In this document: piece after piece, positions 27,640-40,619 of the stretch
Layout of the letters: the number at the start of each line of letters is the position of its first letter
How positions within the stretch are numbered: position 1 is the stretch's first letter
Source: Diplonema papillatum
Lineage: Eukaryota; Euglenozoa; Diplonemea; Diplonemida; Diplonemidae
Direction: 5' to 3'
Assembly: GCA_030068145.1 (NCBI GenBank)
Contig: JAPJBO010000972.1
Location: 18,773 to 82,772 of the forward strand
Length of the DNA stretch: 64,000 bases
Notes under the pieces: generated by a model
What the model was told of the DNA's origin: nothing
What the model saw: only the letters and a program-made list of their open reading frames with translations
Database searches by the model: none
Program-made: the position numbers and the translations under genes

Positions 27640-28030
27640 CTACCGCCAGTCGGAGAGCTTGCAATGATCCTGGGTCCAGAGCTGGGAGTCGCCAGTTGCT
27701 CGCCCTGCGCACCAGGCGAGAGCGAAAGCTCAGGTTTTGCCACCGCGCCCGTTTGCTCTTCTGTTGCGCTCAAACATGTTGCTGTTCGAACAAGCACACT
27801 ACGCGCTGACCAGGTTTCAAGGTATGATACTGGAATTCAAGCTGACGAAACGGAAAGGCTAAGGAACCATCATCATACTACTCACAACGCAAATGTTTAT
27901 CACGAAAGCTAAACGGAATTGCAACCTCAGAGCACGTACTGCAGTGTCACAAACAAAAAACAGCTAGCACGCCACAAGTTGACACGTCTCTGCTTTTGCA
28001 ACCAAGCCACCCGTAACACACATAACCCAC

Positions 28031-30969
28031 TCACTTCGACATCATCATCTTCACAAATTCTTCGTAGTTGATCTGCCCGTCACCATCAACATCAGCTTCG
28101 CGAATCATTTCATCAACTTCCTCATCTGTCAGCTTCTCACCCAAGTTCGTCATCACGTGACGCAGCTCGGCAGCACTGATGAATCCCTGTTTGTGTTGGT
28201 TCAGCCATAACACGTCTGCAGACTCGACGCTCGAGCGGATGCCACCCGAGAAACCAAAAACCTTCAGCGGCCCAACAAAACATGGGAGTGCGGTAAAGAA
28301 AGAGTTGTTTGGGACAGTTTGCAGACTTAGAGCCGTTTCAAGTGGGATACTGCAATCTATCAGTCGGCACACTTGACGGAACGTCCGAATCTCCCATGAA
28401 TGATTGCAGTACCTTCCAAAAAAAAAAACCCTGGCTTTGCCAACGGGTTGTTTCCTGCAGCACTGCCGGGTGGTGGCGGACTATGAAGACGAGCAGCACA
28501 TGTAGTGGGAGGGAGCTGACACGGCAGGCCCCCCACTTTTCGCCGACGACGTGGGCGTCGTCGTCAGTGCCAAAACACTGACAGAACTGAGAAAGGCAGC
28601 CCAGGACGTCGTTGACAACATCGTGACGTGGGCCACCGAAGCCAAGATGGACTTGGCCCATGGCAAGACGGAAGCGGTTTTGTTCCGAGAAGTCGAAAAA
28701 GGGCTCGTGCACATGCGCCGGAAACTCGCTCCCCCGCTAGTCACTTTCACGACAACCCGCCTGGAGATCACGGTTCCGACGGCAGAATTCAGGACGAAAG
28801 TGAAGGATTTCGGCTACACATTCCGATACGTGGACCCGGGTAGCCCGCACCACCGGAAAAGAATCATACTGGTGTGCGGACTTGAGCTGACCACTCGAAA
28901 GCAGAGGAGAGAAATACTGGAGTTGGTAGCTTCGACCGAAGCGACGGAAATCGCGTTCACGGTAGTGACTGACCTCCAATGGAAGGAGCAAGTCACCCTC
29001 CTCGGACTCACGATCGACGACAGACTAACCTTCAAAGCCCACGTCGACCGCATCCTGCAGAGCGCCGGGAAGAGAGTGAACCTAGTGAAGCTCGTATCGG
29101 GGATGAAGTGGGGACACAAGACTGAAGTCCTCCGGGCGCTTTACATGGCGTACGCCTGGCCGGTACTCATGTATGGCATCGCCATATATGGTCCGTACAT
29201 AGCCCAAGAAGAGAAGGATCGGCTCGAGCGCCTACACCGCACGGCGCTAGTTGCGGTCACTGGGTGCAAAAAGACGACGCTGACATCCGCTGTGCTCATG
29301 GAGGCACGAATGCTGCCGATTGAGTCGATGGCAGACGTCCGAACGGGTGCCCTCGGCGAGAAGATGGAGACGAAAAACATGTGGGACGACGTCATCAAAA
29401 CAAGGCATACCAAGGACGCCCTCCCACAGTCATACCTCCACCTCAAAACCGAAGCGCGGACGACGGACCCTCGACGAGAACGCCACAAGCCCAACCCCTT
29501 CCTACCGTGGGTGCCACCACCACTGCTTCACATCAACCCGTCCCTGCCGCGCAAGAAGTCGAAGAACGCAGACAAGAACAGGAGGACGGTAGAGCAAGTC
29601 CTGGACGGGCTGCCCGAGCCGAAACTGGTAGTCTGGACGGACGGTTCCGTGGCCGCACTCAAGACGAGACAGGCCCAGCAAGAACTGCTGCACGGGACGA
29701 CGACCCCGCTCGACGAAGTGACGAGATGGGGCGGGGCAGGCTTCGTGATCTACGACACGCGACGCGGCGGTAACTGGAGGGACCAGACGCTGCTCAGGAC
29801 ACGGTCAAGCCGGCAGGCCGGGAAGTGGGCCACGAGCTATCGAGCGGAACAGGTAGCACTGCGGGCAGCGCTGAAACAAGTAGAAGCGAAGGCGTTTCAT
29901 AGGACTAAGAGCACGCAGGCTAACACCTGGTTCCTGACGGACTCCAGCTCACTGCTGACCGAGCTAAGGCGAGGCCCACACAAGCAAAAAGAGCCAACCA
30001 ACATCGAAATCTGGCAGCTGCTCGAAAAGCTCGTGGCGAAGGGGCACACGCCGATCCTGCAGTTTGTCTTCGGACACTGTGCCCTGGCGGGTAACGATGA
30101 AGCGGACGCACTGGCGAAAGGCAGTATCTCCACAGCGCATGTAGAAAAACAACCGCCAATGACGGTTGCAACGGCAAGGGCGCGCTACCGCGAGCACACC
30201 TGGGAAAGCGTGCATGCGTCAGCGATGAAGGCATCCCCGTACCGTCCCGGCGGACCGCTACCGTATGCGCAACTCGTTCGAGGACGCAAGGTGCCCAAAA
30301 CAGCGCACCTCAATCCAGTTTATTTGTGTGCGCACTGTGCTTGCAGAGCGAGGTGGAAGGATTGGCTGAGAACTGCCGACGAAAACAATTCGTTGTCAAA
30401 ATCTACCGGTGGACAATTGAAGAAACAGTGGGAGGCGAGGGACGAACTACCAGCAGTTTTAAGTAGTTTGAACTCGTTCTGCAACAACAATCTGCGACGA
30501 TAGACTGCACTAGTTGTATGTGCCGTGGGAACAAGTCAGGGAGAAGAACGGAGCAATCTTTACAAACAAACGAGTGACTTAAGGTGGCCGCTTGAGCGGC
30601 GCCAATCCGAGCGCACACAGCAGCAGGGACGACTACCTCTAGGCCGGAGCGAGCAACGAAAATGGGAGCACATACATTGCCATCCTTGTCAAAGACGCGG
30701 AACGCCTCTTTGATCTCTTCTTCTGTGTCAGTGTCATGCATCTTGCGAGACATCAACGTCAAGAACTCGGGGAAGTCAATACTTCCGGAGCCGTCTTGGT
30801 CGACTTCGTTGATCATATCTTGCAGCTCAGCCTCGGTCGGGTTCTGCCCAAGAGACCGCATCACTGTACCAAGCTCCTTCGTCGTGATTGTGCCGTCACC
30901 ATCCTTGTCGAACAAGGAGAAAGCTTCCTTGAACTCCGCAATCTGCTCGTGTGTCAGCTGGTCAGCCAT
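28031..30969 (-). CDS. Calmodulin gene B (two exons, LINE fragment in intron)
   Basis: Exon 1 is 30969-30676 and exon 2 is 28186-28031, encoding the same 149-residue calmodulin as gene A. The intron (28187-30675, 2489 bp) keeps GT-AG ends at the same codon boundary in EF loop 3. Most of it is a foreign LINE segment (28536-30311). Without it the intron would be about 714 bp, the same as gene C without its piggyBac. The coding sequence is undamaged, so gene B may still function if the long intron is spliced. Its 5' flank carries a 36-bp imperfect palindrome (31214-31249). Confidence 0.93.
28536..30311 (+). mobile_element. LINE fragment (RT core to RNase H), antisense in calmodulin B intron
   Basis: The paralogous intron at 35545-35565 reads GGCCCCCCAATCCAG. 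Here GGCCCCCCA is followed by about 1775 bp and then CAATCCAG, so only the dinucleotide CA (or less) is shared at the ends. The insert begins inside the RT catalytic box (FADD) and ends in coding sequence after the RNase H domain. It has no 5' region, no 3' UTR, no A-tail and no normal target duplication. This suggests capture of a fragment during break repair rather than ordinary target-primed insertion. Confidence 0.85.
28538..30311 (+). pseudogene. LINE RT C-terminal half plus RNase H, open but truncated
   Basis: The frame opens with [10 protein letters not shown], the RT active-site box. RT thumb and connector sequence follows ([37 protein letters not shown]), then an RNase H domain with all four acidic positions visible: [32 protein letters not shown] and [16 protein letters not shown]. 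The same order and similar motifs occur in the plus-strand LINE at 58.2-61.2 kb (ADDDGVAVEA, AWSDGSVV, SYRAEEMAL, SDSQSLL, GNERADGIA), so the two are cousins in an RNase H-bearing LINE clade (ingi/I-like). The frame stays open beyond the insert into intron sequence. It lacks the RT fingers, motifs A and B, and an endonuclease. Confidence 0.88.
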
Positions 30970-31213
30970 TGTTAAGTGTTACTATGTATTCTTCGGTCCT
31001 GTTGGAATGGAAGTACTCTTGGCAATTGCACGCTCCGTTGGTTCGAGGTGCGATCGGGGCGCAGATTTCTGCGGGGAGCCATTTGCAAGCAAATGAGCAC
31101 CACGTCACCTGCTATTCTGGAGAAACAAAACGCTTCTTGCAAACCCGATTTTTGGCGTACACGACGCACTTGTCATGCACAACCACTGGTATATAACAAG
31201 TGTGAAAATGTAT

Positions 31214-31249
31214 AACAATGGCACTTGTTATATAACCAGTGCCATTGTT
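31214..31249. repeat. 36-bp near-perfect palindrome upstream of calmodulin B
   Basis: AACAATGGCACT...AGTGCCATTGTT with a mostly self-complementary centre (one mismatch pair compared with the perfect version at 40446-40481). About 245 bp upstream of the calmodulin ATG. A 13-bp inverted repeat (GACGGTAACAAGT at 31253-31265, ACTTGTTACCGTC at 31339-31351) lies just outside. Confidence 0.85.
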
Positions 31250-40191: not shown

Positions 40192-40445
40192 TGTTAAGTG
40201 TTACTATGTATTCTTTGGTCCTGTTGGAATGGAAGTACTCTTGGCAATTGCACGCTCCGTTGGTTCGAGGTGCGATCGGGGCGCAGATTTCTGCGGGGAG
40301 CCATTTGCAAGCAAATGAGCACCACGTCACCTGCTATTCTGGAGAAACAAAACGCTTCTTGCAAACCCGATTTTTGGCGTACACGACGCACTTGTCATGC
40401 ACAACCACTGGTATATAACAAGTGACCTAACAAGCGAAAATGTAT

Positions 40446-40481
40446 AACAATGGCACTTGTTATATAACAAGTGCCATTGTT
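40446..40481. repeat. Perfect 36-bp palindrome upstream of calmodulin C
   Basis: AACAATGGCACTTGTTAT followed directly by its reverse complement. The corresponding site in copy B (31214-31249) has a changed base in the right arm. It is flanked by the 13-bp inverted repeat GACGGTAACAAGT (40485-40497) and ACTTGTTACCGTC (40571-40583). Confidence 0.9.
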
Positions 40482-40619
40482 GTTGACGGTAACAAGTATT
40501 TTCGATTTCCTTCATGACCATGTTTGAATCCTCGGTTTCCAATCTGTTTGAAAGTCGTTTCCTCATTACAACTTGTTACCGTCTTCGGAAAAATATTGGA
40601 TAGGAAAAACTTTTGGATA

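Follow-up and report, generated by a model that had tools for sequence, protein, structure and literature searches.

Two described behaviours of transposable elements bear on the locus considered here. Passages of PMC8354472 describe the excision of piggyBac as precise and as leaving no scar, and passages of PMC5105311 describe insertions of LINE-1 (L1), a long interspersed nuclear element (LINE), at double-strand breaks without the marks of target-primed reverse transcription. We have analysed a stretch of 64,000 nucleotides of Diplonema papillatum DNA (the window; positions 18773-82772 of contig C972, reaching the contig's end) together with the genome, which was searched over 271 Mb in 2,910 contigs. 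The window contains three calmodulin genes, all on the minus strand (A, 26462-27116; B, 28031-30969; C, 35035-40191), each with one GT-AG intron at an identical position. The introns of B and C, which lie on two copies of one segment, are interrupted by different elements, a piece of a LINE in B and a piggyBac transposon in C, and each copy has the uninterrupted site of the other's insert. The alignment shows a local duplication, in direct orientation, of a ~1.95-kb segment with a complete two-exon calmodulin gene, and we propose that two unrelated events would then have struck the same intron, one per copy: the capture of the LINE piece in B and the insertion of piggyBac in C. We give this reading a probability of about three in four.

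Reciprocal insertions in a duplicated calmodulin intron

Self-comparison of the window bears out the original prediction that B and C are copies of one segment, and identifies them as direct copies of ~1.95 kb (1,952 and 1,973 bp without the inserts). The copies share three collinear blocks of 97-98% identity (27640-28535/34645-35555, 30305-30582/35548-35824 and 30581-31368/39806-40600). With the inserts removed, they differ by 18 substitutions in 1,947 aligned bases, of which 11 fall in 1,500 non-coding and 7 in 447 coding bases, and by 7 indels of 1-10 bp. Identity of this degree over 1.9 kb is far above chance. Outside the units there is no homology between B and C at E ≤ 1e-10 and at least 100 bp, save for satellite repeats. 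Long copies of high identity with non-homologous outer flanks are the mark of a recent direct segmental duplication, and the segment was thus duplicated locally. The spacer between the copies contains a high-copy repeat (32323-33140) with a 16-bp satellite, AAAGTTCGGGCGAAGC, diverged relatives of which are found just after copy C (40676-41003) and at 1166-1534 and 11787-12057.

The alignment of B with C also bears out the reciprocal arrangement that had been predicted, with breakpoints that are exact to the base. The two named inserts are the only large gaps, any other gap being of at most 10 bp, and the duplicated flanks run across both breakpoints: the flanks of the LINE piece in B are contiguous in C, and those of piggyBac in C are contiguous in B. 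Such a match between the joined flanks of each copy and the continuous DNA of the other would not be expected from misassembly. A misjoining of haplotypes or repeats would find its best opportunity in inserts such as these, which are high-copy repeats, where assemblies fail. However, the window is without any undetermined base (N), the lack of homology beyond the units speaks against an artefact, and misjoins at repeats would not restore the matching far-side flank in both copies. We consider an assembly artefact very improbable.

The LINE piece in B had been placed at 28536-30311, and its empty site in C at 35551-35556. Its presence and the continuity of the empty site stand, but the coordinates change: the piece is 1,777 bp long and occupies 28536-30312 (28535-30311 is equally valid, owing to one A at the join), and the empty site is the junction between 35555 and 35556. 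A genome search, in which 40 of 288 candidate places were scored, yielded 29 fetched loci for comparison (L010-L038, with L037 and L038 representing one place and L013 serving as the reference). LINE copies on other contigs continue as LINE past both ends of B's piece, and in B the LINE homology ends exactly where the continuous DNA of C starts. The 12 nearest copies differ from the piece at 6-14 of its 1,777 bases (99.2-99.7% identity), and 3 of its bases are private with respect to the 29 fetched loci. L013, the sole one of these 12 to be scanned, matches RVT_1 (6.2e-32) and RNase_H (9.7e-07); B's piece, scanned alone, matches only RNase_H (3.6e-07).

B's piece lacks both LINE ends, and no target bases were lost. 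It stops at position 3277 of L013, in which the element ends near 4458, and the 3' end of the family, an (ACCGATA)n-type tail, lies about 1,180 bp past the end of the piece. Position 4400 or beyond is reached by 23 of the 29 fetched loci and missed by L011 (at a contig end), L026, L030, L033, L037 and L038, as counted by hand; among these loci a missing 3' end is a minority state and is not unique to B's piece. The copy at L037, on contig C1358, is inverted internally at about L013 position 2450, as expected from twin priming. At B's piece neither of the features looked for as signs of target-primed insertion was found, there being no 3' tail and, in comparison with copy C, no target site duplication. 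Since the tail is absent and at most one base is shared with the target, the piece is a non-canonical LINE insertion, a point missed by the original prediction, which had correctly recognized a LINE fragment. An internal LINE piece of this kind would have been captured at a break by end joining, and either a LINE complementary DNA or a copy of a chromosomal LINE could equally have been its source.

In copy C, the predicted piggyBac at 35825-39803 is supported by its target, its ends and its transposase. TTAA lies on the left and TAAA, with one changed base, on the right; in 3 of 3 fetched copies of the family TTAA flanks both sides. The 15-bp inverted ends, CCCAACTCCGACCAA, read by eye, lie next to the target at both termini, and CCC ends are typical of piggyBac. 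An exact match to TTAA plus 20 bp of the left end occurs 126 times genome-wide, including the window's own, compared with 0 for the reversed control pattern. DDE_Tnp_1_7 (PF13843) is found in two transposase pieces (E 3.7e-26 and 6.8e-05, the second barely above the Pfam cut-off), and against solved structures the better of two matches to the first piece is piggyBat (9c0f, E 1.5e-23).

The element is nevertheless not the simple insert it had been taken for, since a retroelement is nested in it and part of its interior is deleted, which makes it a composite. Each of the three fetched copies measures 3,253 bp and contains an open frame of 873 amino acids that begins like the window's transposase. 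Relative to them, the window's copy has 991 additional bases, which are the nested element, and lacks 263 bp in the transposase and 2 bp elsewhere; it differs from all three at 7 single bases in about 2,990. The 263-bp loss, at 38287/38288, breaks the transposase frame, and to judge from its sequence the copy does not look autonomous. When 40 of 1,663 candidates were scored, the window included, no alignment of the other 39 passed the 263-bp junction or spanned the nested element. Genome copies of the nested element (40 of 409 candidates scored) share a common left end and have variable right ends, and it is probably a 5'-truncated non-LTR (long terminal repeat) element. Its two direct repeats of ~300 bp, which are separated by 3 substitutions and 2 gaps, raised the possibility of a miniature LTR element; this was rejected, as the right ends vary and the repeat recurs inside both copies inspected. 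The structure shows a member of a piggyBac family, of which many near-identical copies exist, that entered an older interspersed repeat at TTAA by cut-and-paste; we infer that it would afterwards have received the retroelement and lost 263 bp of its transposase.

The empty site of piggyBac in B, predicted at about 30588, is indeed uninterrupted and is the TTAA at 30579-30582. It lies within the older repeat, for which the best 40 of 2,258 candidates were taken, a sample that favours unbroken copies; of the 35 matches listed outside the cluster, 34 run through the site without a break and 1 covers the first 49 bases only. All 6 fetched copies of this repeat are uninterrupted at the site, with TTAA in 4 and one changed base in 2.

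Table 1. Coordinates in the window of the calmodulin cluster, its duplicated segments and their inserts.
Feature	Position	Strand	Remarks
Calmodulin copy A	26462-27116	-	exon 1 26823-27116, intron 205 bp, exon 2 26462-26617; 149 amino acids, canonical
Duplicated segment, copy B	27640-31368		
Calmodulin copy B, exon 2	28031-28186	-	
Internal LINE fragment	28536-30312	+	1,777 bp; reverse transcriptase from its FADD motif onward, and RNase H; antisense to the gene
Interspersed repeat holding the piggyBac target	30462-30631		high-copy, ~170-180 bp; uninterrupted in copy B
Empty TTAA of piggyBac in copy B	30579-30582		
Calmodulin copy B, exon 1	30676-30969	-	
Spacer between copies	31369-34644		contains a high-copy repeat with a 16-bp satellite (32323-33140)
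Duplicated segment, copy C	34645-40600		
Calmodulin copy C, exon 2	35035-35202	-	two 6-bp in-frame insertions, three replacements
Empty site of LINE fragment in copy C	35555-35556		join of the two bases
Left TTAA of piggyBac insertion	35821-35824		
piggyBac transposon	35825-39803	-	ends inverted over 15 bp, CCCAACTCCGACCAA (read by eye); minus-strand transposase pieces, frame broken
Nested retroelement in piggyBac	36121-37111	-	991 bp that three other copies lack; internal ~300-bp direct repeat
Right target copy	39804-39807		TAAA here; TTAA in three fetched copies
Calmodulin copy C, exon 1	39901-40191	-	one codon less than B; 5' splice site GTCTGT, GTATGT in B

Order of the events

The two uninterrupted sites do not carry equal weight. 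A LINE piece is not known to be lost cleanly, and its absence from C therefore marks the state before insertion more firmly. The empty TTAA in B is weaker evidence than the empty site of most transposons would be, because piggyBac can leave precisely. A further indication comes from private substitutions, which number 3 in 1,777 bases (0.17%) for the LINE piece and 7 in 2,990 (0.23%) for piggyBac, compared with 11 in 1,500 for the non-coding B-C differences (0.37% per lineage). These values lean toward the order in which duplication came first, and both insertions are likely to be later than the duplication.

Several considerations weigh against this conclusion. The private substitutions do not separate the duplication from the insertions in time, the pooled inserts differing from the B-C divergence with P = 0.26 (Fisher). 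B's empty TTAA could be secondary, produced by a seamless excision. The ends of the duplication adjoin repeats, so that the original segment may have been longer than what is now seen. The mechanism of break capture for the LINE piece is inferred from missing hallmarks only, and the evidence as a whole consists of the assembled contig sequence.

Two other histories must be compared with this one. In the first, the insertions would have occurred on different alleles of one locus, after which unequal exchange or repair between haplotypes set both alleles side by side, and neither insertion need postdate the duplication. The same reciprocal pattern would result, and the similar ages of the events (0.17%, 0.23% and 0.37%) are in keeping with it. 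However, this history requires that the ancestor was diploid and heterozygous and that a single intron took both insertions, and by the point estimates the two inserts are somewhat younger than the split of B and C; we regard it as unlikely. In the second, piggyBac would have been present before the duplication and later lost seamlessly from B. Precise excision without a scar is possible, according to passages of PMC8354472, and the open frame of 873 amino acids is found in three fetched copies. Against this, the 7 private changes in 2,990 bases are fewer than expected for an insert that predates the split, though not significantly so, and this history is less likely still. The timeline of the original prediction, duplication and then both insertions, is accordingly the likely one and the one toward which the divergence leans, but given seamless exit, allelic exchange and the value of P it is not established.

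Coding changes in copy C

The exons of B were predicted to be unharmed, and B does encode the same protein as three other paralogues. What had escaped notice is that the coding exons of C have changed. Four EF-hand loops and a length of about 149 amino acids, the features by which a calmodulin was recognized, are found in A, B and C; C has 152 amino acids compared with 149 in A and B, and the best 60 of its 604 matches to solved structures are all calmodulins or calmodulin fusions. C shows four plain replacements (A89V, M125L, I137F and E140G), two 2-codon insertions and the loss of one codon together with a change in the adjacent one (T80-D81-T82 to N-A), and its 5' splice site has changed from GTATGT to GTCTGT. 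Its own coding changes are thus eight, 5 substitutions and 3 in-frame indels, none of them silent; the two silent differences between B and C fall on the B branch. By inspection, C retains B's residues at positions 1, 3, 5, 7, 9 and 12 of all four loops, and I137F and E140G lie within the fourth loop away from what we take to be the metal-binding positions, the loop numbering likewise being our assumption.

When the changes were polarised with A, the C branch received 5 substitutions (P = 0.026) and 3 indels (P = 0.023), where the non-coding rate predicts 1.6 and 0.6; P is 0.002 for both combined and 0.006 conditional on the counts. If all of the non-coding changes are assigned to the C branch, P rises to 0.14. 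An unpolarised comparison of all B-C differences between exons and non-coding DNA shows no significant excess (Fisher P: substitutions 0.15, indels 0.20, both combined 0.055). The absence of silent changes among five substitutions is unremarkable (P = 0.33). The coding changes are the only unusual part of the locus, in a test that was chosen post hoc and involves few events, and the protein of C may be changing unusually fast.

C fits neither of two simple expectations well, those of a pseudogene, in which frameshifts are expected, and of a conserved gene, in which replacements are not. Because the eight exon differences keep the frame and change the protein, C is probably drifting or being reshaped into a divergent calmodulin. 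A more specific possibility, which we find unlikely, is that selection for a new protein is turning C into an incipient calmodulin-like gene. Since the split from B its changes have mostly altered the length of the segments that separate the EF hands and have left the calcium-binding positions untouched; meanwhile four sister genes hold one protein, and two of these differ from B by 70-71 silent changes. We also considered that the exons of C had been converted from a divergent calmodulin. The donor checked was the exon-2 fragment C300, which is 88% identical to A and 80% to C and is without the one C insertion that falls within its covered part. Conversion is not supported by this fragment, the one relative aligned for the purpose, although a more distant calmodulin relative may have been the donor.

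The calmodulin family, its surroundings and known systems

B and C had been recognized as members of the cluster, and copy A, beside B, had not been mentioned. Two further genes, on contigs C37 and C741, specify the same protein, and its 149 amino acids are thus identical in A, B, C37 and C741; relative to B, C37 and C741 have 70 and 71 silent changes and A has 5. Copies A, B and C have the GT-AG borders at which their introns, inserts included, would be spliced out of a transcript, and among the calmodulin exons the Pfam scan covered the exon-1 frame of A only. The exons of A and B are nearly identical, whereas their introns, alignable only close to both ends, and their flanks are strongly diverged, and this suggests past gene conversion between these neighbours. 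One candidate stretch of alignment lies in the downstream flank (58 matching bases of 71, 10 gap positions).

The 3.5-kb intron of the calmodulin gene on C37 was examined as a further case and rejected, as no LINE, piggyBac, nested element or target repeat was found in it at E 1e-5. Much of it (L057) matches, in both orientations, a 41-bp satellite array like that at 48329-49117 of the window. Elsewhere in the window, a unit of ~1,650 bp forms about four head-to-tail copies of 98-99% identity (1744-8395), and a 586-bp direct repeat, 100% identical over copies 7.2 kb apart (46598-47183 and 53814-54399), is perhaps a very recent LTR pair or duplication. An open frame of 796 amino acids on the minus strand (22164-24554) is transposase-like by impression only. 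Within the window no RNA family was found at threshold and no transfer RNA was detected.

As a whole, events of this kind are already known and represent ordinary turnover in a repeat-rich genome; among the article titles listed in literature searches, none treats such a reciprocal-insertion pattern at a calmodulin locus. The B/C pair lets one intron be compared within a single genome, cleanly and to the exact base, in the presence and in the absence of two very different insertions, of which the LINE insertion belongs to the kind that has neither tail nor target duplication. If the changes in C were adaptive, the locus would show calmodulin at an early stage of becoming a calmodulin-like protein, next to its unaltered sister B; if not, it represents the normal turnover of such a genome.

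The insert in C resembles members of the piggyBac superfamily in its TTAA target, inverted ends, DDE_Tnp_1_7 domain and match to piggyBat, and differs in its broken transposase frame, nested retroelement and altered right target copy. B's piece resembles LINEs (non-LTR) with RNase H in its identity to the nearest copies, of which L013 has RVT_1 and RNase_H domains, and differs in that both ends, the 3' tail and a target duplication are absent. In lacking the marks of target-primed reverse transcription it is like the endonuclease-independent LINE-1 insertions treated in passages of PMC5105311; those concern L1 in human and cultured cells, whereas the mechanism in B is proposed from structure. 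Finally, like other calmodulin multigene families, this one has several non-allelic genes for one identical protein, and it departs from them in copy C, with eight coding changes compared with 11 non-coding differences in 1,500 bases between B and C.

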